From assembly GCA_023653785.1 (NCBI GenBank), contig JAMKCH010005448.1, positions 16,764-80,763 on the forward strand: a stretch of DNA of 64,000 nucleotides, read 5' to 3'. The notes beneath the pieces are model-generated. The model saw only the letters and a program-made list of their open reading frames with translations. It ran no database searches and had not been told where the DNA came from. The position numbers and the translations under genes are program-made. Every line of letters starts with the position of its first letter. The first letter of the stretch is position 1. Positions 18,505 to 48,598 of this stretch are shown in pieces. The DNA is from Ophioderma brevispina. Taxonomy: Eukaryota > Echinodermata > Ophiuroidea > Amphilepidida > Ophiodermatidae.

Positions 18505-18570
18505 AGCCGGTATGAACGTCACCGTGACTTTTTTTCAAAGAATTTAGATCATTGGGTAAAGGCTACTCCA
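18505..18570 (+). CDS. Internal exon of a chitin-binding type-4 / LPMO-like protein gene
   Basis: The 66-base exon sits between a good acceptor (TTTCATCATTGCAG) and a consensus donor (GTAAGTGT). One frame begins AGMNVTVTFF and the next frame continues SKNLDHWVKATP. The switch falls in a run of seven T, so a miscounted homopolymer or a one-base mutation explains it. The pattern resembles the mid-domain strand of PF03067-type secreted proteins, which bind or oxidise polysaccharides such as chitin. With the exons at 20304, 31825 and 48521 it forms one plus-strand gene spanning at least 30 kb. The amino-terminal exons with signal peptide and copper-binding histidine were not found, apart from a weak candidate at 4622. 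Confidence 0.5.
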
Positions 18571-20303
18571 GTAAGTGTGGAATAGTACGTAAGGCCCTGA
18601 AGTCAATGTTATGTTTCCTGTACCTTTTTTTGTGCAAATCTAATGAGGCCAACTATTCAGTTTTCTTATTCATTATTATTAATTTTGCAGTACATACTTT
18701 CACCACATTCGCATGCCTCTAATACCTACATATTTTGTCAAACAAACACCACCCTACATTTAGAAATGAGTTTTGCAACTGTTCTTTGGTTTAAAATCTA
18801 CTAATTCCCATAACAAGATTTGAATCACAAGAAGAAACTTTGATACTTTTTCTTAAATACAAAATATTAACTTTTTTTGGGATTTCAATTTCATCATTTC
18901 AAACCGCGGGCGTTACGGGAAAACATAACATCACTTTTCATACGCCCAAACATATAGTGTATGCGGAATTGATCACGTACATGTATCAGTGAATGCCAAG
19001 ACTGTAATCACACCAATGTTATCATTGTTGTTTGTGCAAGCCCCTGCCATTTTGTTTGGCACATTTCTGATTTGGCTAAAGAGTCTCGGGGATCCCCTGA
19101 TTCATAATTCAGTGGTCGGTGGAAACGTCCTCTCATATGAAAATAGCACATGTGCAATTTTTTGGTAGGTATGTGTCTCCCAGATTTAAAAAATGAGGTC
19201 TTTCCTGATTTAGTCCCAAAAAATTATTGGTGTCCCGAACTAGGTTTTAAAAAAATCCAGAAAATGAAGCTGCGATTTCCCATTTCCCTTCCCTCAATTT
19301 CCAGCTACTACTTACTTTGGTAGATTATTGCTTTGGGACATGAAAATAAGCCTGAAAATGAGGGTCTATAGGGGTGCGGCACATCCTAGACAACATATAA
19401 AAATTGGGTGGGGGTGGGGGTACAAGTCACACCAATTGCTACTTTTTAAAGAAAAAAAATTTACTATAGTAACAAAATTTAATACAACTGTATCGTGACA
19501 AAGAGTGTTTTTTAAGAAAACAGGACCTTTTTGAAATTTTTTTAGTAATCGCCCGCGCCCCACAATGTAGTTCTGGTAAGTGTGTGTGGTGTGGTGAGTG
19601 GGGAATGTGTATATCCACATACAACCATGGACACACCTCATTTTTCTCACTACACAACTGCGGACACTATTACAACCGAGGATATGTATTACGTAGTTTT
19701 TGATTCCGTAAATAATTGGCTTAGAGACAGCTTTCCCATCAAACATTATTTAGAAATGGCATAGAATATCAACAATTGCCCTTTACTTCCATAAAACTTT
19801 AAAAACCCTTTCCCTCTCCCCCTGAGTGCGATGACTTGTGGATCTTCAAGTGACCCCCAAAAAACAAACCAATCCCAAATTCCACCCCCATCTTTTTATT
19901 TATTGCAGTTTTATGCCAGCTGTATGATCCCGTGCAAATCATCTAATTTTTTTTAGAGCAATTTTAAAGCCGTGGCGACCCAATTTTGATAACTGATATA
20001 GATAGGGGGACATGCAAGCGCTATTTCCTCTACAAAAATCAGAAAAATCAATGCGGGAATCTGGCCATAGAGCCTGATTCTCTCCATGGAGAGACGTGTT
20101 AATCTAGATTTTAAAGAAAAATCATGATTTGCCCGCAATGAAATTTTGTAAAATTTACAAAGAATGAAGTTAGGGATAAATACTCCAACTTATTTTCAAA
20201 AGTGTGTCGCCCAATGATCTCATTTTGTTTTACCTGGTTTTTTGTCATAATAATGACTTTCAAACAGCTGTGTATGTTTATGTCATTACTACACATTTTA
20301 TAG
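18571..20303 (+). other. Intron of the LPMO-like gene
   Basis: GT-AG interval between two exons. It holds AT-rich sequence and short unassigned open frames (19366-19764) that overlap on opposite strands and show no domain. No mobile element is recognised. Confidence 0.4.
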
Positions 20304-20424
20304 GATATTTCTCCATTGCTATGGCAGCGAGTGACAACAGTACCTTCAGGGCTTGAGTCATATTCAAGATATTGGAGAGCCATCTCTGTCCTTGTTCTCA
20401 AAGAATGTCAACCATTTTCCACCA
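20304..20424 (+). CDS. Internal exon of the LPMO-like gene
   Basis: Bounded by CACATTTTATAG and GTAAGACC. One frame reads GYFSIAMAASDNSTFRA and meets TGA. The next frame continues LSHIQDIGEPSLSLFSKNVN and runs to HFPP at the donor. One missing base after GGGC explains the switch. The first half follows naturally from the exon ending HWVKATP, giving the 'ATPGYFSIAM' type of strand seen in PF03067 proteins. Each half-frame is longer and more protein-like than the surrounding chance frames. This may be a true frameshift in a pseudogene or a sequence error. Confidence 0.5.
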
Positions 20425-21172
20425 GTAAGACCGCATAGAATGCAAGATTATACTAGTACTAATGTAGCTAAGGCGACAAAAAAAAAGTTTTACGGGCGAG
20501 CGGACTTTTTTTGGAAAAACTTTTTAAAAAATTCTGCAAAAACTGAAAATCATGGTTGGTCCGGGGCCCATAAAACAGTGTTTTTTTGTTTTGCAATTTA
20601 GAAACACATTTAGGTTGGTCCACACCCATAATACTATTTGAACATACCGGTGTCAGTGGCATAACCAGGCTTCTGCCACCCTCTGTGGGAAGTTGGTGGG
20701 CACTTGGTTGGGTGTAACATTTGGCTGCTGGTGAGGTTCTGTTGGATCCCCTCGATATTATTGTGATATTAGGCCCCCAAAAAATCAAGTTTGTTTCCTA
20801 CAAGACTTGTATACAAATAATAATAATAAAAAGCATTTTAAAATTTTTTTGCAAAGGCATTTTCCCTACAATAACCCGCAAATCACACCAAACGTAACTT
20901 AAAACAGTTGGAAACCACATTTTACCGTAAAGTAATTGGTTTACAAAACACATACCAATTTGGGATAACTTTTAAAAAAATCTCAGTTCATACAAAAAAA
21001 AAAAAAAACCAATGTGTTGAATGGCTCTAAATGCAGCGGTCTACTGGACCCTAACTCGGTTTTTGGGGGGGCCTTATTAGATATATAGCAGATTGTCAAT
21101 AATGATTTTACTCCAGGAATACTTGTAGTAGTCAATGCTTAGGAGTCGGCATTGATTGGCAATTCCTCCTTA
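20425..21172 (+). other. Intron; no feature recognised
   Basis: Start of a long intron. It includes A- and T-runs (20478, 20996) and a GTCAGTGGCATAACCAGGCT motif near 20652 of the kind that begins some dispersed repeats. Its boundaries cannot be fixed. Confidence 0.35.
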
Positions 21173-22267
21173 TTAACCAACGCGGCCGAGATGCAATGAA
21201 AGCCAAACGAAAACGTGGTACCGGTCGGAAAATTTTTCTCGTTGCATCTCGGCCGTTCAAACAACTATTTTTTTTTTGTCGCGCAAATGACTCTCATTGG
21301 CCCTCATTGCCTCTGGGCCCGTCTTACCGGAAAATGGAGCGATGCTTCCTCGGTTGGCCATTGGGCCGTCCTTTATCTGAAAATGACGCGATGTTCCTCG
21401 TTGCAATTTTGGGCCGTCTTTAACGGAAAATGACGTGATGTTCCCCGTTGCAATTTTGGGCCGTCAATACCGGGAAATGATGCGATGCTTTTCAACACTG
21501 CATTTCTGGACGGTTTGCCGCAGAAGGCGCAATGCTTTTCATCAGGCGGGTGACAACTGTGTACAAATGCCCATAACAATTTCGATTTCGATGGGTGATA
21601 GCGCACCATTTTCGATAATCTCGTTGTTTTTTAATTATCGCATAAACGCATTCATGCCGTAAACCGGAGCAGTGGACGTATCGTAATAACGCCACGCACG
21701 ACTATGATTTAGCGTATAGCCGCCACTCCACGACTGGCGAACGATCAGCTACAAAGTTTCCTGCCAGATCAGTGTGAGTACTCATCCATTATTTAGTTAT
21801 TTATTTATTTATTTATTATCCCCTACTGTTTTTATTTGCAATCGCACGCTATGTTCCTCGTTGCATTCTGGGACGTCTTTTCCAAAAATGGCGCGATGTT
21901 TTTCGTGCATCTGGCCGTCTTCTCCGGGAAAATGACGCGATGTTTTTTTGCGTTGCATTTGGGGCCGTCTCCGGGAAAATGACCAATGTTTTTTCGTTGC
22001 ATCTGGGCCCGCTCCTGTAAAATGACGCGATGCTTTTTCATTGCATTTTGGGTGGGCCGTCTTCCGCAAATGACGCAATTTTTTTTCGTATGCATCTGGG
22101 CCGGTTATTGACTTTACGCTACTTCTTCCTGTGCCGTGAAACGGCGAGATGCAATGAAACCAAACTTTGGCTCTCGTTGCATCTGGGCCGTTAAAATAAA
22201 AATAGATTGCCCTTCGGTGCATTTGGGCCGTCGGCCGTCAAAACTACCCCGGTCCGGTTGGCGTTAA
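21173..22267 (-). mobile_element. TTAA element family C, copy 1, with 44-bp minisatellite
   Basis: Ends are TTAACCAACGCGGCCGAG on the left and, reverse-complemented, TTAACGCCAACCGGACC on the right, both at TTAA. The interior has two arrays of a ~44-bp unit (GGCCGTCTTCCCGGAAAATG, then ACGCGATGTTCCTCGTTGCA). Each array is flanked by GGCCGAGATGCAATGA..CGTTGCATCTCGGCC hairpins, and a (TTTA)n tract (about 21791-21818) lies between them. It matches 33725-34711 in reverse complement. TTAA plus CCC-type termini suit piggyBac-derived elements; no transposase is present. Confidence 0.8.
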
Positions 22268-22660
22268 TGGAATTGTAAATATTTTTAGCAATACAGTTTG
22301 AAGAAAGGTGTGTGCAAGGATGTTTGTTATAGACCTTATTGAAATTGCCCTTCCTGCAATTGATGGGTACGAAACTGGTATGAAACACATCACAAATCGA
22401 GGCAATATTTCCAATCACCTGGCGATGGCACTCAAGGTTACATATAAGTCCTGCAATCTTAGCCATTTTGTGCCCCCCCCCTCACTGCATTAAGGCATGA
22501 AGACACATATAGATTCACTTTGTGTCCACTCATTTTTGAGGTCTGTTGAGGTCTATTGTTGTGGTCTTTATTAATATGAAAAAGGGTTAACATTTGCTTG
22601 TATATCGCATACATGTACTTTATGGATTTAAACCAAACTTGAGTCTAGATGCAACAATAT
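22268..22660. other. No feature recognised
   Basis: Short AT-rich interval with no supported gene or repeat. Confidence 0.35.
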
Positions 22661-22804
22661 TGTTTTGGAGAATGCATGCTCTAGCAGTTCGCAAGCTTAC
22701 CCGGAGCACAGGGTCCCTCATATCGAATCTCAGTGGGACCACTTGACTGGGATTTACATTGGGGACCTCAATTTGGGATTTAATTGTTTAACATATTTGA
22801 TTCA

Positions 22805-23055
22805 AACCGGAATATTACACTTTCTCCCTGGTTCATTTGAAATGGGCAATGAACATGAAAGTTGCAACTACCCATCCGGTGTGGTGTTTCGTGTAGTGTG
22901 TTTTAATGTTAGCGATAAATTGCGCTGTTCTAAGCTGCTGCCAAGGTTTGCAATTGTTTTTCTGTCTATAATTATGAAGTTGTGAATCTCTACAATTTGG
23001 CCCTACAGGCCACGATTTGAGATTAAAAATACACCTTGATTATTATTATTATTAT
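22805..23055 (+). mobile_element. 3' end of non-LTR retroelement with (ATT)n tail, copy 2
   Basis: Second copy of the 285-535 family: AAATGGGCAATGAACATGAA, GTGTTTCGTGTAGTGTGTTT, GGCCACGATTTGAGATTAAA and a closing (ATT)n. The preceding 140 bases (from about 22665) may be more of its 3' untranslated region. The tail is immediately followed by unit 1 of the 1.75-kb duplication. Confidence 0.62.
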
Positions 23056-24805
23056 GGTATCCCTCATTTTTGTTGATGAGGTCAAAGGTCACAATACCAA
23101 GGTGAATGGTCACATACCGGTCAAAGGTCTGTGAGGCCACATTGGGTACGATAGGCTAAAAATGGTAAAATTGACCTCCATTGAAAAGTTGAAGTTCAAT
23201 TGGAACCAAACTTGGTTTATGGTAATTACATGCAAACTCTCTTGTTTATGAGGTCAAAGGTCACATCAAGGTCAAGGTCATCTGAGGCTATCATTGCAAA
23301 CCGCGATGGCAGGCAACACATGTGGTCCGAGGACCGATGTATTTTTCTGTATCAACTGTTTTTAACAAGTTGAGGGCCACTTGGCACGTTATATTTGAGC
23401 AAATTTTCAATATTTTAACTATAATTTTCTTGTGCAGCTATGATAAAGGCCAAGAACAAAACAATTTTGTGTACAATGGTCTTTTATAGCGTTCAAAGAG
23501 TAGCGCATTATTTTTTTGTGTCGCCTGAACGAATGTTCATGGGGGCACATACTAGTCCAAATTTTGTGTGTCCGTATGTATGAATGTCCGTCCGTATGTT
23601 CGTATGTCTGTATGTCCGACCGTATGACTCTGTTAACCTTTTTAATAAAAGCTCTGCAGGCTAACGCTATCCCTGATGTACTTCAAACTTGATAGGATGA
23701 TTAGATAGAGTGAGGTGCTGTGCTCGCAATATTATGTGTGATTTTGCTGCATAGTTGACAATCATGAATATTAATAGCTTATTTGCCCTATTTTTCAGAC
23801 ATTTCGGGTTAACCTTTTTGAAATGCTCTGATGGATAAACGCTAAGCCCGATTTACTTCACACTTGGTAGAGGGGGGTATGGCGGTGTTTGGGGAGGGCG
23901 GGTGGGGGGGGGAGGGTGTGGGCAGGGGGGTGGTGAGGAGTGTGGGGAGAGGGGGGGTGGAGGGTGGGTGTTGGGGAGGGGAGGTGGGGTGTTATGGGAG
24001 GTTGGTGGGGTGTCGGGGATGTGGAGGAGGGGGTGGGGTGTTGTGGGGTTTTGGGGAGTGGGTGGGTGTTGGGAAGGGGGGTGGGGTTGTTGGGGAGGGA
24101 TATCTGCAATCCTCCACTGTATCTGCTTGCACAACACCTTGTGAAAAACACCCGTATTCCATACAGGGTTTTTAATTTCATTTCAGTGGTGGGCGGGATT
24201 TGTGTCTATTCAGAGTGAGGATTTTGAGCGAACCTCTACCTCCCATAGCTCTTTTCTCCTTTTCTAGTTCTTATTTCTTCTCAGCATTCCAGTTGCCCAG
24301 GTTTTAGTGGATGGAATAACATCAGTTATGGTAGGGTCAACAGGCACCTGTGCCCTGGAATGTCCAGAGTCCCTGATAACAACAATACATTGACCTGCGT
24401 GGACATTACTCACAAAATGGTCGGTGGTTGGTGGACAGGTTAATCGCCATACTCCGGTTTGGTTGGCAACTGCGACCAAATGCTGTACACTTTCCTATAT
24501 GACACTTATAGGTTAGGCTCCGTGATGATTAGGCCATTAAATAACATATGCGCTGACATACCAGCATTAAGGGCGGAAGAAACACCAGGTTCAACGGCCA
24601 GTGTGTTCAGACTTTATAGTATATGCTGCCTGTGACTCACCTATTGCAGGAAGGAAAGGCTTGGGGAGGACACCCTGAGGATAAATCCGGAGTTGGAGTC
24701 CCGTAGGCGACTTACTGCTCTACGCAGCACCAGTTGGGCAACTCCTGCGACGCTGCTTGCACCAAACTGTATCGTTTCTCGACGCTCCTTGATTTGTCTT
24801 CAGCA
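23053..24805 (+). repeat. Unit 1 of a ~1.75-kb tandem duplication
   Basis: Order of parts: a block rich in AGGTCAAAGGTCA-type motifs (23053-23330); a block with GATAAAGGCCAAGAACAAAA (23380-23510); a GTGTCGCCTGAACG..GTCCGTATG block; a GTTAACCTTTTT..GATTTACTTC(A/C)AACTTG block; a G-rich array; and 5' sequence of the RTE-like LINE ending GATTTGTCTTCAGCAT. It is collinear with 24806-26547. Confidence 0.82.
23868..24100 (+). repeat. G-rich minisatellite array 2
   Basis: GGGTGTTGGGGAGGGG-type units inside unit 1 of the 1.75-kb duplication, with G on the plus strand. Open frames on both strands here are repeat artefacts. Confidence 0.9.
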
Positions 24806-26547
24806 TTATGGGATCCCTCATTTGTTGATTGAGGTCAAAGGTCCATCCCAATGTCACAGGTCACATACCAAGGTCCAAGGTCATGTGAGGCCACATTGTA
24901 AGATAGGCTAAAATGTAAAATTGACCTCAACAACAATTGAAAAGTTGAAGTTCAATTGGAACCAACTTGTTTATATGGTAATTTACATGCAAACTCTCTT
25001 GTTATGAGGTCAAGGTCACATCAAGGTCAAAGGTCATTGATCTATCATATCAAACCGCGATGGCAGGCAACACATGTGGTCCGAGGACCGCTGTATTTTT
25101 TCGTATCAACGGTTTTTAACAAGTTTGAGGGCACTTGGCACTTTATTTTGAGCATTTTTCATTTTTTAATTTACTAGAATTTTTTCTTGTGCAAGCTATG
25201 ATAAGGCCAAGAACAAAACAATTTTGACTCAGAAGCGTGTATAATTTTTTAAAATTGGTCTTTTAGCGCATTCATTTTGTGTGTCGCCTGGAACGATGTT
25301 TCATGGGGGCCTACAGTCCAAATTTTGTGTGTCCGATTTCCGTCCGTAGGGGTCGTATGTCTGTCCGTATGACTCTGTTAACCTTTTTAAAATGCTCTGC
25401 AGGCTAAAACGCTATCCTGATTTACTTCCAACTTGATAGGATGATAGTGAGGTTGCCGCAATATTTATGTGTAGCTTTTGGCTGCATTATTTTGCATATT
25501 CATGAATATTAATTAGCCTTATTTGCATATTTGTTCGACATTTCGGTTAACCTTTTTTTGAATTGCTTGTGCTGGCTAAACGCTAATACCGATTTACTTC
25601 ACACTTTGTAGGGGTATGGGTGTTGGGAAGGGGTGGGTGGTGTGCGGTGTGTTGGGGTGGGGTGTTGCGGCGTGTTGGGGACAGTGGGGTGTTGCGGGGT
25701 GTAGGGGTATGATTGGTGTATGGAATGTTGGTGGGGTGTCTGTGGGATGTTGAGGAGGGGGTGGGGTTTTGGGGGTTTTGGGGGTGGGTGGGGTGTGGGA
25801 AGGTGGTGGGGTGTTGGGGCGGGATATCTGCAATCCTCCACTGTAATTGCTTGCACACCTTTTGGAAACACCCTGATTCATACATGGTTTTTACTTCACA
25901 GTTCAGGTGGTGGGCTGGATTTGTGTCTATTCCAGAGTAGGATTTTGAGCTGCCTCTACCCCTATCCCTAAGCTCTTTTTCCTCCTTTTCTAGTTCTCAT
26001 TTCTTCTCAGCATTCCAGTTGCCTAGGTTAGTGGTTAACATCAGTTAGTAGGTTCAAAGGCACCTGTGCCCTGAAATGTTTCAGAGTCCCTGATACCACC
26101 AATACATTGACCTGCGTGAACATACTCACAAAAGGTCGTTGTTTGGTGGACAGGTGTATCGCCAATACTCACTCGTTTTGGTTGGTCAACTGGAACCAAA
26201 TGTGTACACTTTCACTTTATAATCCTTATAGGTTAGGCTCGTGAGTAGGCCATTAAATAACCTATATGCTGCTGAACATACCAGCATGGTGATTGGGGCG
26301 GAATGGGGTAAACCACCATGTTCACGCCAGTTTGTTCCAGACTTTATATATCTGCTGCCTTGTAGACTCCCCTGATTGCAGGAAGGCTGGGGAGACACCC
26401 TGAGGATAAAGTCCGGAGTTGGAGTCCCCGTAGGCGACTGACTACTGCTCTACTCAGCACCAGATCGGCAACTCCTGCGACGCTTCTGGCACCAAACTGG
26501 TATCGTTTCTTCGTTTCTCGACATTCCTTTGGATTTGTCTTCAGCAT
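24806..26547 (+). repeat. Unit 2 of the ~1.75-kb tandem duplication
   Basis: Same order of parts as 23053-24805. Where unit 1 restarts the duplication after TCTTCAGCAT, this unit runs on into the LINE body. The duplication therefore includes the 5' end of the LINE plus about 1.1 kb upstream of it. Many one-base indels separate the copies. Confidence 0.82.
25612..25832 (+). repeat. G-rich minisatellite array 3
   Basis: Counterpart of array 2 in unit 2. GGGTGTTGGGG and GGGTGTTGCGG units, preceded by GATTTACTTCACACTTTGTA and followed by GGGATATCTGCAATCCTCCA. Confidence 0.9.
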
Positions 26548-26944
26548 GGAGAGGTGGATCCAGTGTGCATGGGCAAACATCATCCGGATCTCTCCATACA
26601 TTCTGCCCTGGCATCACGCCCTGGATCGGACCTCCAGCTTCGCTTCAACATAGCTAGAACCACACGGGAAGTAGCAGTTTCCGGTTTAAGCTCTTTGCTT
26701 AATTGGCGTATAGCATAGCGCCAGTGTGCTACTTCCGACAGTGTAAGAAGATCATCGCATCCACTGTACAAAGCTAACCACCGCCCGCCTTAAGCTGGGC
26801 AGCCTCAGCCAATGGTTCGTCCCGCCACAGTTATTCTTCCTCATAAGGGTGCATGGGGGATAGTGGAGACATTAATGAAAAGCTGACTGCAACTACAGCA
26901 CCTGGCAATCAAGATAAGATCCAAGAAACCCTCCCCTCAAGCTG

Positions 26945-27720
26945 GGATTTTGGAATGGCATACATGACCCCTGGTTAAGTTACAACCTCAAAGATATCAA
27001 TGATACTCGCAAGACACAAGCCATCATTAATAAGAGCGCCCAAGACTTCAATCGACAATAGCCACCTTACAAGAAACCCGTCTAGCAGATTCGGGTACCT
27101 CAAGGAAAAGGATACACATTCTTTTGGCAAGGGAAATATCAGAAGAACGCATACTTTGGCATTGGTTTTGCAGTTAGTAACTCCTTACTGATTTCAGTGG
27201 AGCCTGGTAACGGTGGATCAAACGCCCTCTGACAAACTTTCGCCTCACAAACCATCGATGGCCCATTCTCCCGCAGCATGTTTTATTATGGCTCAAAACC
27301 CTGACATCACCTTTCTGAAGCCAAGATGAATTCCCTATGACACACTTGAAGCCGTAATCCAGGGTATCAAGTGATGAACACCTCCTTCTCCTGGTTGATT
27401 TCAATGCGAGAGTGGGTTCTGACCACTAGTCCTGGCCACTTTGCCTTGGACACTTTTGTGTCGTAAGACCAATGACATGGACACACGTCTTCTTGAACTG
27501 TGGCCTACTATACACCTGTTTGTGACCAACACCTTTTCAAGACCAAACCTCAACACAAAGTATCCTTCTCACCCACGCTCCACGCACTGCATCAACTTGA
27601 CCTGATCATCACCAGGCGATCTTTCATCAATGCCATCAGACCTCACTAGGTCTTACCATAGTGCAGACTGTGGACAGATCATGCGCTTGGTCTGCTGTAA
27701 GATCGACTGCGACCAAAGAG
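26945..27720 (+). pseudogene. LINE endonuclease (APE-type) segment, frameshifted
   Basis: In successive frames I see LGFWNGIHDPW (normally GTWNVRTM-like), then LQETRLADSG at 27067-27096 (the catalytic Glu motif), LLVDFNARVG at 27388-27417 (GDFNAR motif with G replaced by V) and a TDHALG-like end near 27675. These are the ordered motifs of exonuclease-endonuclease-phosphatase fold nucleases that nick target DNA for LINE insertion. At least four frame changes and internal stops are present. Confidence 0.78.
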
Positions 27721-28539
27721 GATACACCGCTCTAAACAAGCTGGTAAACCCCTCATCATACATCACTATCAGCAAAGCGGACATATGTTGAGCAATTTGC
27801 TGTTTTTCCAATCAATGCATCCCGGGCTTGTCCTGGTCTCAGGTGATACTGCAACAGAAATGGAACTCATCTGCATGAGACAATTCAGAGCTCAGCAGTC
27901 TGTATCTTTGGAAGAAATCCAAGCAGAACAACGATTGGGTTGAGGCCAAGTCAGGCTTACTAACTCCATTCATTGAATCCCCAAAGAGCGCGTTCAGGGA
28001 GTATCAGAGTTCACCTTCCACACCCAACCTGAGAGTGCTTCAAGCATCTAGAAGTGAAGTTCAGCAGCGAAGGCAAGTCAGTGTGCCAATGAATACTTGC
28101 TGGAGCTGAGTTGAAGAAATACAAACCGCTTCTGAAACGGGCAACATCAGAGCTATGTAGGATGGAATAAAGAAGGCTTTCGGGCCATCTCAGTGCAAAA
28201 CAGCGCCCCTCCAGTCAATCCATTGGTGAAGTCATCACAGACAGACGTAAGCATGCAGATGGAGCGCTGTGTGGAACACTTTTCTGCTCTACTCTACAGA
28301 AAAAGGTGTTACAAAAACACCCTCAGCCCTTGACAAGATCCGATTCTTCCCTACATGGCTGCCCTAGATGCTGTACCCCCGTACAGTGGATGAACGTGAC
28401 ATGGCCATCGACATCTTCATCCGGAAATCCCCGGGAATATGGAATACACAGACCATTGATCACATGCTGTAAAAGCTCTCTGCTTTACCCACTACAATGT
28501 ATTTCTCTCTCTGTCAATGCTGGGGGGAAGGAGCGTACC

Positions 28540-29360
28540 ACAGAGACATGCGCGCGACTCAAAGATCATCAACCTCTACAAGAACAAAGGGAAGAAGTGA
28601 TTGCAAAAAATTACAGGGGTATTTCCCTCTTAGTATTGTCGGCAAGTTTTTGCCGTGTTGCGTTTATGCGTCTTCAAGTTCCTGGCTGAAAGGGTGTATC
28701 CTGAGTCTCATTGCGGATTTCGTGCTGGCAGTATCTCCTATCGATATGATCTGCCCATACGCCAACTATAAAACGGAGAAGTCAAGAGAACAACAGAAGC
28801 CACTCTACATTGCGTTCATAGACCTTAACCAACGCCTTTGACTGGTTAGCAGGAATGGACTGTTCCAAATCCTCCAGAAGATTGGCTTGTCCACCAGGCT
28901 TCTGAGCATCATCACATATTCTTTCCACACTGCCATGAAAGAACGGTACAATTTTGACGTCAGCCTATCAGAGCCGTTCGACATTCGCAGTGGTGTTCAG
29001 CAAGGATGTGTTTTGGCCCCCACGCTCTTTGGGATATTCTTTTTCAGTACTTCTTAAGCTAGCATTTGAGACAGCCAAAGAAGGCTCACATCCACAACAG
29101 TCTGATGGCGCTCTTCAACCTGCACGCCTTAGAGCTAATACACGATGGTTCGTCAGATAGTGATATTCGTGACATGTTGTTTTGCTGATGATGCTGGCCA
29201 TTACTTCACATTCCCAGCAGGAACTTCCTGCTCATAGATCGCTTCTCACAAGGCCTGTAAGACTTCGGATCTTGTCATCAGTTTGAAGAATACTATTTCC
29301 TTGCCCAAGATGCTCAAGAACCACCTTTCATCACAATCGACAATTACACACTTGAGGTTT
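28540..29360 (+). pseudogene. LINE reverse transcriptase segment, frameshifted
   Basis: Ordered RT blocks: KNYRGISLL near 28605, YIAFIDL..FDW near 28806-28848 (first catalytic Asp block), GVQQGCVLAPTLFGI at 28992-29036, and FADDAG at 29181-29198 (the catalytic DD box). Each lies in a different frame, separated by single-base indels. Spacing between the blocks is close to that expected of an intact LINE RT. Confidence 0.85.
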
Positions 29361-30689: not shown

Positions 30690-31012
30690 ATGAGGGGGCA
30701 GGGTGGGAGTTTGGGGAGGGGGCCGGGTGGGGTGTTGGGGTTGTTTGGGTTTTGGGGTGTTGTAGGGTATTTGGGAGGGGGAAGGGTGGGGTGTTGGGGA
30801 GGGGCAGGGTGGGTGGTTTGGGGAGGGGCAGGGGTGGTTGTTGGGGAGGGGGAAGGGTGGGGTGTTAGTGGCTCGGTGGGGTGCGTTGGGGAGGGGTGGG
30901 GTGCGGTTCTGGAAGGGGTCTGTGTGGTGTGCCCTCTGGTTGGGGGTCGGGGTGGTGTTGTTGGGGGAGGGTGCATTGGGGAAGGGATGGGTGCGTCGGC
31001 GAGGGCGGGGTG
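30690..31012 (+). repeat. G-rich minisatellite array 4
   Basis: GGGGTGTTGGGGAGGGG and GGGGAGGGGCAGGGTGG units, with G on the plus strand. Long Gly- or Pro-rich open frames on both strands are artefacts of the repeat. Confidence 0.9.
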
Positions 31013-31014
31013 AC

Positions 31015-31345
31015 GTCATGGTGACCTTGGATGGACCGTGTGGACCTTGGTTACTTCGTGTGACCTTGGTGACTTCTTGTGACCTTGGTGACTTCTTGTG
31101 ACCTTGGTGACATCATGTGACCTTGATGACCTCATGTGACCTTGATGACCTCATGTGACCTTGATGACCTCATGTGACCTTGATGACCTCATGTGACCTT
31201 GATGACCTCATGTGACCTTGATGACCTCATGTGACCTTGATGACCTCATGTGACCTTGATGACCTCATGTGACCTTGATGACCTCATGTGACCTTGATGA
31301 CCTCATGTGACCTTGGTGCCTCATGTGACCTCATGTCACCTTTGG
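31015..31345 (+). repeat. 19-bp tandem array of TGACCT half-sites
   Basis: About eleven near-perfect copies of TGACCTTGATGACCTCATG (31110-31315), with variant copies (TGACCTTGGTGACTTCTTG) before them. On the minus strand the unit reads CATGAGGTCATCAAGGTCA, so AGGTCA half-sites alternate with 3-bp and 4-bp spacers, and each unit contains TCAAGGTCA. These are direct-repeat spacings recognised by nuclear receptors (established knowledge). Whether any protein binds here is unknown. Confidence 0.92.
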
Positions 31346-31384: not shown

Positions 31385-31492
31385 TGGGATGCGAAGGGGG
31401 GGGTGGGGTGTCTGTGGGGTAGGGTGTGTCGGGGAGAGGGGGTGCGTCGGGGAGAGGGTGCGTCGGGGGAAGGGTGGGGCGGTGGGGTGACC
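31385..31492 (+). repeat. G-rich minisatellite array 5
   Basis: GGGGGGGTGGGGTGTCTGTG and GTCGGGGAGAGGGTGC units between two TGACCT arrays, with G on the plus strand. Confidence 0.85.
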
Positions 31493-31585
31493 TGATGTGA
31501 CCTTGGTGACCTCATGTGAACTTTGTGACCCATGTGACCTTTGTGACCATGTGACCTTTGTGACCCATGTGACCTTTGTAACACT
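31493..31585 (+). repeat. Second TGACCTTTGTGACCCATG array
   Basis: Four to five units of TGACCTTTGTGACC(C)ATG, a variant of the 31015-31345 unit with altered spacing. Confidence 0.8.
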
Positions 31586-31824: not shown

Positions 31825-31855
31825 TAGCATTGGATTGTCCACAGCTGTCATTCAA
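31825..31855 (+). CDS. Short internal exon of the LPMO-like gene
   Basis: Flanked by a strong acceptor (TGTTTCTTTTGTTTTCTTTGCAG) and donor (GTAAGTAC), 31 bases long. One frame reads ALDCPQ and a second ends TAVIQ. AVIQ joins in frame with VTYVTKNP of the 48521 exon, and DCPQ..AVIQ resembles the C-x-x-C-(V/I)-(L/I)-(Q/R) strand near the end of PF03067 domains. As written it needs indels both at its start and inside. It supports the gene model mainly through its splice sites and its fit with the last exon. Confidence 0.42.
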
Positions 31856-38038: not shown

Positions 38039-38039
38039 C

Positions 38040-38700: not shown

Positions 38701-40336
38701 GTTGTGTAGTTCAAAACGATCAAGAAAAAAATGGTCTGTAAGGCATATACTTAGGACAATTTTCAACGGCCCTAAGTGGGCCCGAACCGTGCGCGTCCGT
38801 TTTAGTGTTTTTTTATTCGCTACTACGCTTCCAAGGATCTTACTGCAGCAATAACATTCTCATTTACACCCCCTGACAAAATGCCTAGCGACGGCCCCTG
38901 GGTTATATTGCTTAAAGTTGCATTCAGAGAGATTATCGATTGGTTGTTTTATTGGCCAATTTTATAGATCAACCATGTATGTCAAACTAAAGCCATTGAA
39001 TATCAAAAGTGATTTTCCGATGGGAAACCCACTATAACTGTCGAGAAATGAACAAATAATACTTTCTTTTTTTTTTTTTTGAGTATCAATTCTGTACAAT
39101 TATGTGGGTTGGGGGTAAAGTGTGCATTAGTGCACTGAGAGAGGTAAAGTGGTGAATGTGTGAAAGGCATGTCACGCTTTTAGTTCATGATATAGTCCAC
39201 CAAAACTGCAATGTAGAGAGATTAATGAAAGTTGAATAGCTCATGATAGAGTGCATCATGGAAATGTAGGTTTCTTTTAATGCATTGATTGCTGATGACA
39301 CCCCATAATTCAATGGCATACTTTTTATGACCCCTTGTTTTTTACGTACAAAAACTATGCCCCAAGACCCCTTAGGCGGAGTAGTCAAAATGACGCTTTG
39401 TTGTTACGATGACATAAAGGAAATTCACCCATTTTTGTCCTTGTATGTGTAATTTAAGACTGGCTATTCTCGTTGGGCGGGAAAACCTGATATGCATTTA
39501 ACCTTTGAAATTAAAAAAAAAGGTACAAATATAAAGTGTGTTTTTGAGTTTTTTTGTGTAAAAATTAGATTTCTCATTGATCAAAAAAGCCGAGCAATAT
39601 TGTGTTAAACAACACCAAAAGGCGTGTTATTTTAACACCAAATAGTGTTAAAAAAATTAACACAACAGGTGTTCAAAAATAAACCCCAAAATAGTGTGAA
39701 TTGTGAACCACCCCTGGTGTGGTCCTCCTAGAACAAGGCGGTGTTACTTTTAACAAACCTAGGTTTTGCAGAGACATGCTGATACGATTTTCGATCCAGC
39801 AAAAGTCTATTTACCAATTTGCCTTGCTTTATAAAATCTGACTTCGGAGGAACTAGGACGTTTCGATCTTGGATGTTTGCAAGCGGGGCCTTTCCACTGT
39901 TAAAAAATGTTCCTTAAAAACGTTTTTTAAAATGTCCAGCCGGGACTCGACACTTTACAAGAACTGTAAAAACCGCACGTTTTAACTGTGTTTGTAAGTG
40001 CAAATAACTGTATAAAAACATCGTTTTAACTGTTTGAGTCCCAGTTGCCAGTTAGAACGACGTTTTTTATGAACCATTTAAACAGTGCACATAGGGGCTT
40101 TTGAATGGTCAAATGCAGATTGAGGATGCTATGAATATTTATGCAATAGAGGTACAATACGTGCACATCTGACTGTGCGATGAATCATACACAAAATCAA
40201 CGAGAGGACTCACCGTACTCACTCCAAATGTCACGAAGAGGAGCTCACAGTACTCACTGAGCTACAAGAGCTTCCGAGGCTGTATCTGAGGCATGTTCTT
40301 CTCAAAGTATAGATTTTGCGTTAGAAGCTGGTCCCC
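38701..40336. other. No gene; short palindromic motifs
   Basis: Around 39601-39770 runs of GTGTTAAAA / TAACACC motifs form small inverted repeats. Around 39900-40100 GTTTTAACTGT and ACGTTTTTTAAAA motifs recur. No coding sequence is recognised. Confidence 0.4.
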
Positions 40337-40900
40337 AGCGCCCCTTCCTCGCTCTTCGGATCGCCGTCAATCGCTTGCCAAAACTCGTCGTCAGCATCCC
40401 GTGGCACTTCTGTACCTAATTTCGACTTTAATATGCAGTGGCCCAGCACTTCATTGAATATATCCCAAACGTCTTTTGCAGACTTACTAGAAGCAAAGCC
40501 ATATTCTTGTTAATTGTTCGAATGTCAGAACAACATTGCATTCATCTGTAAGCGGTCGGGATTGGTTTAATTGTGAAGCCTGTGCCAAAAAATCCCTCCA
40601 CTATAGGACTGCCACCACAACATTGTCTGCAGTTGCTTGTTGGGAGCTGCGAGGATTGTCGCGATATGACAACATTCGGTGTCTTAGACATTGCCTGTCT
40701 TCATCAGATACATCTCGTTGGCTCACGGGTTCAGCTGGTGCAACGGCGACAGCGTTTGATATCGGGTTTTTCATATAGGCTAGTTCGCAGTCCATTCCAC
40801 ATGTACATGTGGCTTGCGCAAAGTCGGCAGAAGATTTGTGGCCGTTTCAGGTCAGGCGTTTTTCTGGTCAAAGCCTTAAAATACTTAAAGAGGTGGTGAC
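40337..40900 (-). pseudogene. RecQ-like helicase remnant, C-terminal part
   Basis: Read on the minus strand from 40900. One frame gives LKRPQIFCRLCASHMYMWNG, resembling helicase motif IV (IIFC). Other frames give EDRQCLRHRMLSYRDN (like the CRRxxLLxYF of the RecQ zinc domain), then CRQCCGG, then NVVLTFEQLTRIW. Last comes a frame with SAKDVWDIFNEVLGH ending TSF and a stop near 40337. This order fits the C-terminal half of the expanded invertebrate RecQ-like helicases. Frames shift several times and motifs V and VI are not visible, so the copy is broken or the sequence is faulty. Confidence 0.5.
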
Positions 40901-40969
40901 CCCATCATGGTTCAATTTTCTCACATGATGTTTCCTCCTTCACATGGAAGCATATCACCAAAACTAGGG

Positions 40970-41345
40970 ACAGCAGTCCCAAAAGGTTGTCCGATTATAT
41001 GGTCAAATGACCCTAAGTGAACCGGAATTACCTCTGACCTTCTCATCTGTAATCCCCCACATAAGATCCCTTGTCTCAATTTTTAAGCATCCAAGTGTAA
41101 ACATGATACATCACTGCACTAAAAAGCTAGACATTTTAACCAAAAGTGTAATCGGACTGCAACCAAATATAATTACCCTAGGTAACCCTGAAATGCCTTT
41201 GACCTCATCTGTTGGAAAAAAAAAAAAACCCCTGTCCTCAATGTAATAATTCAACCAATTTTTAGTATGAAAACTTTACCCATCACTGCACTAAAACTAG
41301 ACATGTACTACTAGGGTTGGGCAAATTTTAACCAAAAGTTTGACA
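40970..41345. repeat. Degenerate ~170-bp tandem duplication
   Basis: ACCCTA(G)GT..CC..GAAATGCC/GAATTACC..TTTGACCTCATCTG..CTCAAT..CATCACTGCACTAAAA..CTAGACAT..TTTTAACCAAAAGT occurs twice in order. It lies in the interval between the two RecQ-like segments. Confidence 0.6.
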
Positions 41346-41842
41346 CACACACACCGGGGGTAGGATGCCATAACAGCAATTGATTCAAATCGGCATCACT
41401 CCGGCGTAACGGTGTGCTAGTCTTTATCAAAGATTTATAGGGTACACGGTAGGAAGCCACTCTTACACACATCTGACAAAGACTTGACTAAAGGCTTATA
41501 GCGGTCAGAATCTTAACCGTTATTGCAAATTGCAGCTTGCAGCAGGAGGGATGCGGACGCAACCACCCAAACCACAAAAGGGCAATAACCTCCTCTTTTA
41601 CAAAATTTAGAGAAACTTTGACAGAAAGTCTACATTTTTGTGATGAGATGTTCAAAAGTAAAAAAGGACATTTCGGGGGGGATTAGGCCTCACTTTTACA
41701 AACACGGTCCACTTTTTTTCAAGTCCCGCACCCCTCCCTGCGTACGGCCTTAACTTTGACAAAAAAGAAGTCTCTATCCTGAAAACAATGATTGAATTTG
41801 GCTTTAAATTAATCACTGGTTTTATAAATATAATAAACGTAC

Positions 41843-42392
41843 CAGTCAGCTATACAGTGGCATTCATCAATGAAGATGTCCCGCGCAATCTTCTTTCTCG
41901 GTACAACGGATTTCGCAGCATGGAATCTGGCCTTCCGTGTCGAAATAGCTCCTCCGTCGCTGGCTTGCGTAGAGCAGTGAAATTCTCCCTTTTGTCAATT
42001 TGAACTTTGCACCCCTTCTGTCTTATCATCATCTAAGTTGACTGCTCTTATACCAAAATTGTTCAGTGTTTTAACTTGGTCTTCAACAAGTGCAACAAGC
42101 GATGCAATAACAAGTACAAAGTTACGCTCTGGAATTTGAATTTCCATCCTCCGATTCTAAAGCATGATGTTCTTCTTCAGCTCCACTTACATTAGAAAGA
42201 TAAGTAAGTAGTCCCAACAAGGGGCCGCTTTGGAAACGAGATTTTTCCGGTTCCAGTGGCAAAACCACAATTAAGTCATGACCCTGAGAAAAGCGAACAA
42301 CGACGCCTTCTCCTGCACATCTTTCACAATTGGACACCCAAACTTTTTCGCGAAGGAAATACTAGCCTTAACTCTGCTCTTTCTGTATACAT
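41843..42392 (-). pseudogene. RecQ-like helicase remnant, N-terminal exon
   Basis: A possible start (MYTERAE at 42392) leads in shifting frames to KASISFAKKFGCPIVKDVQE, then DLIVVLP with ATGTGK (Walker A, 42243-42260), then VLVIASLVALVEDQVKTLNN (motif Ia) and GIRAVNLDDD. It continues with LFRHGRPDSMLRNPLYRER and IFIDECHCIADW (motif II, a DECH variant of the usual DEAH). A GTACGT donor splits the final Trp codon at 41843. Motifs and order are those of RecQ-family 3'-5' DNA helicases, about 180 residues. Three or more single-base frameshifts are needed to read it through. Confidence 0.65.
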
Positions 42393-42399
42393 GTTGATA

Positions 42400-43120
42400 G
42401 GCGAGCTCACAATGTCAGAAACAAACTGTCAGAGATAAACTGTTTTCCTTGTATGAAGAGCTTGGCATTATACTCCAACGAATGTTGTAGGAACGATCTA
42501 ATAACTAATATTAAGTTACAGCTAAAAACATTAATTCCATCTACAATATCACATCACAATCGCTAGTTTGTATACTCATAATTCATACTGAAACTCTTGC
42601 GCCTTTTGAGTGTAGTTACCAACGTTATAAGCCCACAATGGAATTAGGATACCGACGATGGGTGGTCACAACACCGACCATATGGCAACTCCACAAAATG
42701 TATCAATTATATTAGCACAATAAGCCTGCTACAAACACAACCAATTGGTGCTTTGATGTGCGTGCGTTCTCTTGACCCATATATCCCGTCCTCTTCCGTT
42801 ATTCATATATACATATTTTTTAAAAAATACAGTTTGATTTGAATTCTTTACAGCACATTTGGGAATGAAAAATGATTCCTTGACAACATATTTTTTTTTT
42901 AAAATCAGATATTTTTTTTATTTTTTGCTTTTTTTAAGTTTTTTATTTTTTTCTAAATTTGGGATTTCTGGGCCGCTAGAAAAAAAAAAACAACCTCGTA
43001 ATAAGGCCTCATAGAGAGGGGAGTGTGGTATTTCCAATTGTTTTTTTTTTAACAAAAGAAATAGTGAAACTTCATCACATAGGGTTTTTAATAGGTGAAA
43101 TGACTAGTTTTACAGACTGT
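42400..43120. other. No gene; T-rich tracts
   Basis: Very AT-rich with long T runs (42890-42950, 43040-43050). No feature is supported. Confidence 0.4.
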
Positions 43121-43124
43121 GCAT

Positions 43125-43376
43125 AATATTTTCAAAATGCACCATAAAATATCCTATGGTGGCAACCACCCCACCACCCCTTACCTTCGACTTTGACGTC
43201 ATACCCTACCCCGGTGAAGTGCTACTTCACATTTTTTTTTTTCGCTAAAAACTGGCCATAAAGGATGAAACAATGATTACCCTAGATGCTTTTTAGGCGG
43301 CTTTTGGCATTTTAGGGCACCGAAGCAAAGTTCACTACGGGGTCGTAACCACCCCCCCCCCTGGTAGCGAGGTTAA
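43125..43376 (+). mobile_element. Left-truncated relative of MITE family D
   Basis: Shares with 36783-37059 the order TATGGTGGCAACCACCCC, CTTCGACTTTGACG, TTTTTTCGCTAAAA, CATAAAGGATGAA, and a right end GCGAGGTTAAG like GACGAGGGTTAAG. The left TTAACCC end is not found. Confidence 0.5.
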
Positions 43377-44655
43377 GGTGCATGTTTTCTTGTAATCCAC
43401 CCACCCTTTCATTTGCCCGCATTACCTCCTTAAATCCGATATTCCCGATATATTTTTTAGCGCAAATTTGATTTTCGCCTATTTTCTGTGGAAAATTTGC
43501 AATTTCGTTTCGCCGGTACCACACGGACCTTGATGACGTCATTGTTACGCCATACTAGTATGTTGGTACTTATTTCGCATCATGGAAAAGGAGTACCCTA
43601 GCTATCCACGGGTAATCAAATAATAAGCATCCGGGTGCTTTACTAACATTCTCGAGGGGGTGGTACCACCACCCCCCCTTGGTAATCTTGTTACAAAAAG
43701 TGCTTGGTAAGACTTGGTAAAACCTTGACCTATAAAGAATGACATCTTAAAAATGGATTGCATTCTGAGAAAAACAAAATTTGTCAAAAAAGTCCTTTTT
43801 CTTTAGATTCCTTGTTTTAGAATCAAATGAGGGATATTCCGAAGCTCCTCCTCCCCCCTGTTCCCCTTCTTTTAAAACATTGACTTTCCTTCTCCCAGGC
43901 CCGATCGTGGGAAAGACATTGGCGTATTTGCATCTAATTCCACAAATGGAAAATGGAAAGAAGGTTCAAGTTTTAACGATTTTTTTTATAAAAGTTGTTA
44001 ATTTAGAGAAAATTTGACGAAAATTCAATTTGTTGGTGAGTATCGTTCTCAAAAATGTAGGTGCCTAACATTATGGTAGGGCCCACTTTAAACGACAACT
44101 ATCGTGATCCCCAGAAGAGTGAAAATATTTGAATTTTGCAGGAATAGCTAAAGTTAGCTGTCAAACTGTAACGTAAGGCACATCACTCAAATTTCAGGGA
44201 TTTATAAGTAAATCCTTGAGGATGATTTTTGTTAGGGACCAATTAAATCCGACCTTGCCCTTATTCAATATATTAATTTGAAGATTCAAATCATATTAGA
44301 TTTAAATTCCATCTAATATGTGGCCGACATAGGTACCAATATCTAAGGATTTTGTTAAAGATTTTCGAGTAGGGCCCTACCTAAAGTAATGGAGTTTTTA
44401 CTGTGTGTTTTAGGTTAGATTTTCCTGTCATCTTTTCTCTTTTTTCATGAGGACCATGTCCTCCAAGAGTGTTCAAGTTCTTTAAAACATACAAAAATAC
44501 CGAATTTTGTCCTGAATATTTTAGTACCTAATTTTATAATTGAAATGATAGATGTCTATGATATCCTCGTACAATTTCCAATAAATGCAACTCTAAATTT
44601 TATTCAATACAACCTCGAAAAATGGCGTAAAAATTACAATATTTTGCGAGTTTTC
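43377..44655. other. No gene; diverged relative of MITE family B near 44090
   Basis: About 44089-44170 matches the left end of the family B MITE (GAGTGAAAATATTTGAATTT then GCAGGAATAGCTAA), but no clear right end is seen. The remainder is AT-rich without features. Confidence 0.4.
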
Positions 44656-44825
44656 CATAATGCCCCCTTTTTCTGCATACCTTTTCTGACACCCTATGAA
44701 TTCGGAAACCTTACCTGACCTTAACAAAATAAGACCCCACAGTTTATGTTGTTTATTTTATTCCGTAAGGTTTCCGAATTCATAGGGGGCCAGAAAAGTA
44801 TGTCAGAATGGTGTCACCTTATGGA
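44656..44825. repeat. ~170-bp hairpin element
   Basis: Left arm CACCCTATGAATTCGGAAAC CTTACC (44691-44716) pairs with right arm GGTAAGG/GTAAGGTTTCCGAATTCATAGGG (about 44766-44789). The flanks ACCTTTTCTG / CAGAAAAGTATGT and CCATAA / TTATGG extend the pairing. It is a small foldback element. Confidence 0.7.
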
Positions 44826-45489
44826 AACCCCATATTTTGCTGTATAAAAATGGTATCAAGTTTTTATTTATATTTCTATATATTTGACATTTTTATTTAT
44901 TTTATTTTAATATTTTTTATAACTGGACGCACTATGTATTAGATGTGTGCCCCTGTTTCACAAGTGAGTTACTAATACTAAACTCTTTTATATTTTAAAG
45001 AGATTTGCAAATTACATACATAATCATGAAGTCTCAATGAAACCATTAAACTTGGAAATCATGACTTGAGCCACAAACACCAATCCAACAAGAATTGCAA
45101 CCTAGAAATTCCTTGTTTGTACTGCCTGAGCCAAACCACAAAAAACGCGCGCGTGCTACACCCCAGGTGGTCCGTCAACAGCCGCTCAGTTCCCAGGGCA
45201 CAATTTAAATCCTGCGCAAAAAATAAGCAGTTGCAATCGATTGGTCTGGCGTGATATCTCTTACGCACATACGCACGTCGAGATGGCAGTGTGGGTATAT
45301 CGGAACCATTCTTAGACTATGTTTGTGGCGGAGTACTTCCCTTCCCCCCGACCTGGGGAGATTTGATACGTTTTCTACCCCCTACAGATCGGAGGGTCCA
45401 AGTATATGGGTTTGAAGAATCTAGGTATTTCAATTCAGCTCTTGGCTGTTTCAAATCACCGTGGACCCGGGGAGTGTCTAGTGTATGTG

Positions 45490-46570
45490 AGAGTGATTAT
45501 TGAGAGGCTGAAAAGTGGAAATTTGGAACAGTGAGTGACTTTGAGAGTGAGTGTATGTGAGAGGAGTGCAACGTGTATGTGAGAGGGAGTGAGTGAGGTG
45601 AGCGGGAGTGCACAGTGTATGGGAGGCAGTGAAGTGTCTTCAGAGGTGAGTGTCCTGTGAGACGGGAGAAAGTTTCTGTTACAGCAGGGCGTGCTTGTAT
45701 GTGCAGATGGCTTGACGTGTCTGTTCGCGTGCGTGCTGTCCCTTTGCGCGGCGTGCACGTGTCTCTAGCGTTGCGTGTCATGCGAGTGAGTGTCTGTCGC
45801 GGAGTGGACCGTGTATTGTTCCGTGCGTTGCCTGTGCGCGTGAGTGATTCATCTGCATCAGGGCGTGCATTGCGCGGGAGGCCCGTTCTGTGCTCGTGCG
45901 CGTGGACTGTGAGAGTTGAGCGAGTGTATGCGAGAGGGCGTGAACGTGGTCTGTGAGAGTGAGTGCGTGTCATGTAGAGGGAGTGAAAGTTGTCTTTGAG
46001 GACACAAAGTGGCGTTTTTGTGTCTCTTCTCGGTGGAGGCTTGTCTGTGCTCGTCGATGCGTTTCTGTTGCGATGGGAGTCCCATGTCTGTGCGTTGCGT
46101 GTCTTTGCGCGGCTCGTGCCCGTGTCTCTGCGCGTGCGTGTCTGTGTCGCGTGCAGTGCGTGTCTGTGCCGTGCGTGGCGTGTCTGTGCGGTGCTGCCCG
46201 TGTCCGTGCGGCGTTGCCCGTGTCTCTGATGCGCGTGCGTGCATGTGCGCTTGCGTGCCTGTGCGCGGAGCGTGCCCGTGTCTGTCCTCGTGCGTGCCTT
46301 TTCGCGGGCGGTTGCCCGTGTCTGCTGCGCGGCGTGCCGTTTTTGTGCGCGGGCGTCCCCTTTTCTGTTCGGGCTTGCCCGTGGTCTGTGCCGCGTGCGT
46401 TCCTGTGCGCGTGCGTGCTGTGACGCGGGCGTTCCCGTGTCTTTGCGCGGCTGGTCTGTTTGTGCGCTGGGCTTGCCCGTGTCATTTGGTTCGTGCGTGT
46501 CTGTGCGCGTGCGTGCCCGTGTCTGTTGGCGGGCGTTCCCGTTTGTGAGAGGAGTGTTTTTAGAGAGTGA
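45490..46570 (+). repeat. CpG-rich degenerate satellite (~1.1 kb)
   Basis: Begins with GAGTGAGTGTATGTGAGAG units like the array at 32618 and grades into GTGCGTGCCCGTGTCTGTGC GCG-type units. The CpG density contrasts sharply with the AT-rich surroundings. Long open frames on both strands (up to 222 codons, Arg/Cys/Val-rich) are repeat translations. Confidence 0.85.
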
Positions 46571-47670
46571 TTGAGGTGAGATCGTGCATTACCAGAAGTG
46601 CCCCAACCTCCACCTCTATTGCAGTGACATCCATGCAAGATTTGATGGTTGCTTCATAAACTGCACGTGCGGATTAAGACAACGCATATCTTGATGGGTG
46701 CGTAAAAGCTGCACTCAAGGTTATTTACATCACTGCACGGAGGTAGAGAATGGAATATAACAGCTGACCAGAGTAAATGAGAACATCGCTGCTGCACTAA
46801 ACAGTAGTGAAATCATCAACGTGCTAGTTATGCTTAAATAATTTGTGTCATGCCTGGCCTGCTGAATCCCCTCTATTCTTCTTTGACTGTCTGGCTGTTG
46901 TTGCTGAATGCTTTTCGGAGCATAGGAGTCGTTGTTATCACACCCATCACGATTTGAGCAAGGTCCCACGTACCAGTGATTTCGCTTTAAAAAATCTGAA
47001 GAGGGCCGGGCTGAGGGGACACTTGTTTTTCGGAACCACACACAAATCTTCAATTGCAGGCGAATTACTTTTTAATTGGGTAATCCAGTTTACATTGAAC
47101 ACATGAACCTTACATTTTCCGGTTAATTCCATTCAACCGGTTGTCTTCCTCACAATGTATATTGTAATAGACCAACAACTGATATCCCCCCCTCCTGGAT
47201 AGTTGGAGTCGAGGCTCCTTTACCTCCTTTCATATGCCACTCTTAATTAACTCTTACCACCCATAGCATACATCGCAGAGTGAAAATTAGGATTATTCCA
47301 TTTAGTGACCCCTGCTGGATTTAGCAGACTTAAATGGAATAAAGTGCGAATTCTCCATTATTCCATAAAGTCTGCTAAATTTATAAGGGTAACTAACGCA
47401 TGCCAGGATGATATATTTAATACATTTATAAATATTTATTATTAGAAAAAATGTTGCACAAATCCTGCATAGATTTTGTCATGGATTGTGTGGTAATTTA
47501 TATCAGTTTTTGTGTGTGCTTAAATCATTTATACACAACATTTGATTGATTCATTTTATGGTCAGGCATGTGCATTTTTTGTTAACATTATTATAATGGG
47601 AGTTCCTAAGGTATGTTAGATTTTTTGGTAAAAAAAGTGGTGTGTAGTAACATTTAATGAATTACCATTA
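46571..47670. other. No gene confirmed
   Basis: A 107-codon minus-strand frame (46730-47053) starts MKICVWFRKTSVPSARPSSD. It has no recognised family, but its mixed composition is less repeat-like than most frames here. A foldback pair near 47297-47380 (TATTCCATTTAGTGACCC / GGAATAAAGTG..CCATTATTCCATAAAG) is weakly supported. Confidence 0.3.
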
Positions 47671-47672
47671 GG

Positions 47673-48241
47673 TTACGCAATTTAGCACATTTTTTGAAAG
47701 AGCCCTCCATTTCCCAAAATTTGATATTTTGCAGAGTTATGTGGGTAATTGTTTACGAAATCTAATACCTGCAACGATAATGCTCGAAAAATGCGTATTT
47801 ACATAAATAAGCGAGTTTGTAATAAAATTGGATCCCAATTGGACTTAACGGTGACTGTGAAAATGCTACGTTGTATGTCCTGTCCGTGATGAAATAGTGC
47901 CACCTCAAGAAATTAACCGCTAACTTGACTTCCTGACCAATAAAACCAACTAACGGATGAGCGTATAATATGTACATGGGCGCTATTTCCCGGCTATTTC
48001 AGCATTGAAGGCAGTTTCCCAGTCCAGCCGTTGAATTATTACGGGGATCCCCGATTCTAATTATTCCTATTCAAAGTCCTTTCGTTTGTGAACACACAGA
48101 CCTTTTCAAGTTTAAAAACCATTCCCAGGGTTAAAAAAATTTAGTTTACTAGCCTTTTAACCACATTCAACGGTGTAGACTCTCAAACATTTTGAACATT
48201 TGAGGGCGCTCTTCAAAAAAAATGTGCTAATATTGCTTTAA
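47673..48241 (-). mobile_element. TTAA foldback family E, copy 3
   Basis: Right end AATGTGCTAATATTGCTTTAA is intact; left end TTACGCAATTTAGCACATTT has a decayed TTAA. The two ~250-bp arms are inverted copies of each other (TACCTGCAACGATAATGCTC near 47767 on the left). The length is 569 bp. It lies just upstream of the terminal exon of the LPMO-like gene. Confidence 0.75.
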
Positions 48242-48520
48242 TGTCTGCATATTTTTAGTTTCCCATTCATTGGCAAAAATCAATGCGTTTATGTCATTTG
48301 GACAGGACTCATAATGGCACGCGGACCTGTCGGGCTTGTGCGATTATTTGTCATCAAACTAAGTATACATTGATTTTTTGCCAATGCACTCGAAGCTAAA
48401 AATATTCAGTAACCACTAAATCTTTAGTGAATTAGGAGTGGATTTCAGAGCTCATTAACAACTCCACTATTGCAATTGCAAATGAATTTGTCATGATTTT
48501 TTTTTTCTTCTTTTCTTTAG

Positions 48521-48598
48521 GTGACTTATGTAACTAAGAACCCCGATGCTCCAGCAGTATTCTACCAGTGCAGTGACGTCTATGTGTTCAATGACTGA
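48521..48598 (+). CDS. Terminal exon of the LPMO-like (PF03067-type) gene
   Basis: A long pyrimidine tract ending TTTTCTTTAG precedes the exon. It is open from its first base: VTYVTKNPDAPAVFYQCSDV, then YVFND and TGA at 48596-48598. The pattern (Y-V-T-x-N-P-x-A-P-x-x-F-Y-Q-C-S/A-D-V) is the closing strand of chitin-binding type-4 / lytic polysaccharide monooxygenase-like domains, where the Cys forms a disulfide. This is the cleanest exon of the gene, with no frameshift. An AATAAA lies 68 bases after the stop. The family assignment is from remembered motif style, not a search. Confidence 0.55.
   Translation: MTYVTKNPDAPAVFYQCSDVYVFND

Follow-up and report, generated by a model that had tools for sequence, protein, structure and literature searches.

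A six-exon, probably broken gene for a predicted secreted copper protein in the brittle star Ophioderma brevispina

The six-exon locus and its closest relative

We analysed 64,000 nucleotides of the brittle star Ophioderma brevispina (the window: bases 16764-80763 of the 80,763-base contig JAMKCH010005448.1, which ends where the window ends; assembly GCA_023653785.1, 2.51 Gb in 65,844 contigs). The window carries most of a split gene which is a previously unreported member of a known fold, and which is probably broken. In the initial annotation, four exon-like stretches on the plus strand (the first ending at 18570, then 20304-20424, 31825-31855 and 48521-48598) had been joined in this order. 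Each is preceded by AG and followed by GT, with a stop codon instead of GT in the last one. These splice sites and the tblastn matches of related proteins bear out the four exons and their order, and the intron sizes of 1.7, 11.4 and 16.7 kb are correct (1,733, 11,400 and 16,665 nt). However, an exon at 9910-9982 and the first coding exon, which lies upstream of the window on the same contig, had been missed, and about 60% of the gene had been seen. Six coding exons give a gene span of about 50 kb, with introns of approximately 10.9, 8.5, 1.7, 11.4 and 16.7 kb between successive exons. The exons in the window encode residues 36-157 of a 157-residue protein, and the four exons annotated initially cover roughly residues 61-157. 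The exons in the window are as follows (a slash marks an exon boundary or, in exon 4, a frame break):

9910-9982, plus strand: exon 2, GANDCFLTK...MAKSPTAGES; acceptor cag/GT, donor CAG/gtaggg; frame break in mid-exon, where relatives show C-G-x-R
18507-18570, plus strand: exon 3, AGMNVTVTF..KNLDHWVKATP; frame break at a T run
20304-20424, plus strand: exon 4, GYFSIAMAASDNSTFR / LSHIQDIGEPSLSLFSKNV / TIFHH; two internal frame breaks and one at the exon 3 junction
31825-31855, plus strand: exon 5, SIGLSTAVIQ, intact; reading continues from two bases of exon 4
48521-48598, plus strand: exon 6, the last coding exon, VTYVTKNPDAPAVFYQCSDVYVFND followed by the stop, intact

Exon 1 was located by tblastn with the N-terminal pieces of ten relatives in the 16.7 kb of upstream sequence. 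It reads PPQRGSMIGINKQ/G, with 13 of 14 residues identical to the Amphiura filiformis protein described below, its ATG is 1,143 bases upstream of the first base of the window, and the phase of its donor matches the acceptor at 9910. Nothing convincing was found when this exon was sought inside the window. Exon 3 starts at 18507 in the revised model; the previous start at 18505 uses the neighbouring AG. The stretch 31825-31855 had been given as DCPQ..AVIQ, which mixes two frames; the reading VALDCP in the first joined peptide was rejected, and SIGLSTAVIQ agrees with the relatives and needs no frame change. The broken frames that had been pointed out are real: exon 3, exon 4 and the junction between them each require a frame change.

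The joined peptide, padded with undefined residues (X) for length, matched 21 proteins at an expectation value (E) of 0.01 or less. The closest is an uncharacterised 157-residue protein of Amphiura filiformis (P0001), with 69-70% identity along exons 2-6. The two end at the same place (VFND in the window frame, VFRD at residue 157 of the Amphiura protein) and are sisters in the tree, where the branch leading to the window gene has ten times the length of the Amphiura branch. By sequence comparison, the six-exon gene is the orthologue of the Amphiura protein. The latter has an open frame and SAHMC at the start of the mature protein, whereas the window gene has SAQLC and is frame-broken.

With the 21 relatives as queries, exons 2-5 were matched by tblastn in order on the plus strand, among the matches listed, and exon 6 was matched in further searches. 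All 20 full-length relatives that were tested (P0002, a fusion of two domains, was omitted) matched the window, with the best E values ranging from 3e-14 for the Amphiura protein to 1.8e-4. The best E values were 0.042 among 200 shuffled proteins and 0.18 among 20 reversed ones. As these controls are far from the values of the true relatives, the gene is real and not a product of chance. The exons are short (31-121 nt), and exon 2 alone scores only E 0.4-0.8, which would be expected if chance matches had been joined by eye. But such an explanation is hardly credible, given the controls and the fact that exon 1 was located later, in upstream DNA outside the window read first.

It is improbable, too, that a working gene has different true exons, formed with other splice sites or lying in assembly gaps, and that the broken stretches are duplicates. 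Pieces can indeed be missing, since the contig stops at the window end and the assembly consists of 65,844 contigs. On the other hand, all six exons lie in order on one contig, the splice sites fit everywhere except at the exon 3/4 junction, and neither exon 4 nor exon 6 was found a second time in the assembly. The DNA of exon 4 matches only itself there.

An animal family and its putative copper site

The family members named among the matches come from sponges, Trichoplax, molluscs, an annelid, a brachiopod, bryozoans, echinoderms, hemichordates and amphioxus. We compared the family with two profiles, PF20238 (BIM1-like copper acquisition factor) and PF03067 (LPMO_10; LPMO, lytic polysaccharide monooxygenase). 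The Amphiura protein scored 27.9 bits against PF20238, above the gathering cut-off of 27, and 13.8 bits against PF03067, below the cut-off of 23. At E of 0.01 or less, 95 of 108 relatives matched PF20238 and 34 of 108 matched PF03067. The window peptide, in which exon 1 is absent and the breaks are written as X, scored 16.5 and 16.1 bits against PF20238, under the cut-off, and was not listed for PF03067 at E of 1 or less. Judged by these profile scores, the animal family is nearer to PF20238 than to PF03067. The gene continuity and the LPMO-like identity proposed in the initial annotation are supported, and the relationship to the animal family is significant, but PF03067 is a neighbouring family. 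Of the two findings that the initial annotation had named as refuting, one, the lack of a significant profile match, was observed for PF03067. Chitin binding is at most a putative property of the encoded protein.

The predicted model of the Amphiura protein has an LPMO/X325-type beta-sandwich fold. A second structure aligner gave 17% identity between LaX325 and this model, and LaX325 was not among the best 50 Foldseek matches listed. Sequence searches of solved structures revealed no significant relative; the best profile match to an AA10 chain had an E value of 0.28.

Histidine is the first residue after the signal peptide in 107 of 108 relatives. In the fitting frame of exon 1, the motif SAH-x-C of the relatives is replaced by SAQLC. 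The expected copper-binding His1 is thus glutamine at this locus, unless the assembly is wrong at this point. The second, internal histidine (KNLDHW) lies in exon 3, equals H75 of the Amphiura protein and is kept in all 108 relatives. D104 of the D-x-G motif, whose match to the X325 aspartate ligand is uncertain, is conserved in 107 of 108 relatives and kept in the window gene. Four cysteines are invariant in the 108 relatives; at this locus two of them are read, in exon 2 and exon 6, a third is encoded by exon 1, and the position of the fourth falls within the broken segment of exon 2. The C-terminal motif FYQC(S/A)D resembles AA10 chains, and its phenylalanine would be the axial residue near copper.

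Frame breaks, repeats and the state of the gene

By eye, at least six frame breaks are seen in exons 1-4 and none in exons 5 and 6. Exon 1 contains one clear break and another, less certain, close to the ATG, exons 2 and 3 contain one each, one falls at the exon 3/4 junction, and exon 4 has two that cancel each other. Because of these breaks, the glutamine at His1 and the tenfold longer branch, a decaying pseudogene is the most likely reading of the window copy, and we consider it probable, with moderate confidence. Its function has probably been lost. The possibility of a pseudogene had been overlooked in the initial annotation.

The surrounding repeats were used as a yardstick for assembly error. 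Three features are important here:

11585-13577 / 13566-15594, plus strand: direct duplication, end to end, about 2.0 kb, in the intron between exons 2 and 3; read-noise-like differences
23034-24806 / 24787-26547, plus strand: second direct duplication, end to end, about 1.8 kb, in the intron between exons 4 and 5; the same kind of differences
18600-18946, plus strand: repeat copy beside exon 3; differs from the consensus of 22 other copies by 61 substitutions and 10 gaps

The copy at 18600-18946 is old (18% diverged), and the 22 other family copies compared are young, at 1-5% from the consensus.

Several observations weigh against a pseudogene. Exons 5 and 6 are intact. Of the 24 positions in exons 2-6 that 90% or more of the relatives share (counted after the added window row had been fitted to the length of the alignment), the window gene retains 20 and differs at 1, and the remaining 3 fall within broken stretches. 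The fitting frames are disrupted by shifts, and no stop codon created by substitution was seen in them. In an actin control, an internal stop is listed in 25 of 73 rows by our own count. The gap-to-substitution ratio after masking of simple sequence is 0.51 in the first duplication and 0.69 in the second, and three further repeat pairs touching 15.6-26.5 kb have ratios of 0.50-2.0. Together, the features of the two duplications around exons 3 and 4 suggest unpolished, unmerged long-read sequence. The first has 126 gaps and 226 substitutions, of which 56 are transitions, and the second 106 gaps and 163 substitutions with 31 transitions (a fraction of about 0.2 in both). G-to-T differences outnumber T-to-G ones by 69 to 27 and 42 to 19, respectively. 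The differences are spread fairly evenly along both duplications, and in the self-comparison of the contig these are the only adjacent direct duplications longer than 300 bases.

It is therefore possible, if rather unlikely, that the gene is alive and that the frame breaks and the change of His1 to glutamine are errors of an unpolished long-read assembly. The flanking end-to-end duplications, with their unusual excess of single-base indels, few transitions and G-to-T excess, speak for such errors. So do the position of several frame breaks at short single-base runs, the retention of most conserved residues, and the fact that 5 of 18 repeat pairs have a ratio of at least 0.50 with at least five substitutions, all five touching 11.6-26.5 kb. 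The other 11 sizeable pairs have ratios of 0.07-0.38, three of these pairs having one partner at 12.1-14.5 kb; a ratio of 1.0 was obtained for two tiny pairs at 62 kb, which differ by 1-2 substitutions. However, the repeat directly after exon 3 (18600-18946) has a ratio of 0.16, against 0.06-0.50 in the 22 other copies, and the repeat upstream of exon 4 shows 0.14, a value based on just three copies. When stretches of the two members of the first duplication are compared with a third copy at 55 kb, the ratios are ordinary as well (0.15 and 0.12). These values weaken the idea that the whole of 11.6-26.5 kb is read noise. Moreover, exons 1 and 2, which lie outside this region, are broken too, and the six best of the 73 assembly matches to actin have no internal stop over 519-534 nt. 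Since the indel ratios of the repeats adjoining exons 3 and 4 are ordinary, we favour the pseudogene over assembly error.

Searched against the 2.5-Gb assembly, the Amphiura protein gave a strong match only to exon 6 of this locus (E 1e-7), plus two weak places; as each exon is matched separately in this search and five candidates were scored, divergent relatives in the genome are possible. One of the two weak places is a lone exon-3-like piece of the family, VRPGQTFDTKFQQNLEHWVNFTPG (L004:1543-1614, contig C20939). We rejected it as a second gene copy, as no other exon was found on this 67.9-kb contig at E of 0.05 or less, apart from one weak match (E 0.049) at 62 kb. A match on C18433 was also rejected, being weak and without the internal histidine. 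Within the window, a reverse transcriptase-like frame lies at 28842-29054 in the 11.4-kb intron (RVT_1, 16.3 bits, cut-off 29.6), and other frames at 26-30 kb resemble retroelements on visual inspection only. A minisatellite with the unit TGACCTCATGTGACCTTGA (31011-31331) and a related array (31487-31579) lie just before exon 5. A minus-strand open frame of 363 amino acids at 45497-46588, over a G+C-rich tandem repeat, has no Pfam match. Scans of the window with Rfam (at the gathering threshold) and for tRNA revealed no matches.

Proposed function and relation to known proteins

In the intact relatives, removal of the signal peptide would expose His1 and give a mature secreted beta-sandwich of about 141 residues. 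The exposed N-terminal histidine and the internal histidine (QKNLDH) would together form a histidine brace that binds a single copper ion. These proteins would act outside the cell without a membrane anchor, and their role could be polysaccharide oxidation, as in LPMOs, or copper handling, as in Bim1, the two being about equally likely. Copper binding and an LPMO- or Bim1-like activity are thus predicted properties of the animal members.

Excerpts from the literature place the aspartate copper ligand of X325 on a glycine-rich loop (PMC7529816) and describe all X325 proteins as carrying a C-terminal linker and a glycosylphosphatidylinositol (GPI) anchor (PMC8615602). Unlike the fungal X325/Bim1 proteins of PF20238 (LaX325, 6IBH-6IBJ; Cryptococcus Bim1/Cbi1), the window and Amphiura proteins end after the last strand and have neither an X325-type linker nor a GPI anchor. 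From the AA10 LPMOs (PF03067, such as CBP21 and ScLPMO10D) the Amphiura protein differs in falling under the profile cut-off. In the animal AA15 LPMOs (TdAA15A, 5MSZ), ten conserved cysteines are described in an excerpt of PMC5823890, in contrast to four invariant ones in the animal family, and the TdAA15A chain has 195 residues compared with about 141 in the mature animal proteins. According to further excerpts, Bim1 takes part, together with Ctr1, in the copper uptake of a fungus, and shuttling of copper from the wall has been proposed for it (PMC7924993, PMC9258870). In the literature searched, judged by titles and the beginnings of abstracts, we found no description of an animal X325/Bim1 family.

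A broader proposal, which we hold tentatively and at less than even confidence, is that an undescribed animal family of secreted histidine-brace copper proteins, extending from sponges to amphioxus, bridges the AA10/AA15 LPMOs and the fungal X325/Bim1 proteins, and that a brittle-star lineage recently lost its copy and kept a 50-kb fossil of it. Taken alone, the locus amounts to a single gene copy that is probably dead; the uncharacterised animal family is the part that deserves attention. This compact family keeps the histidine-brace residues, whereas two reviews, in the parts consulted, place X325/Bim1 in fungi (PMC10952591, PMC8615602). The brittle-star copy may provide a natural loss of a copper-protein gene.

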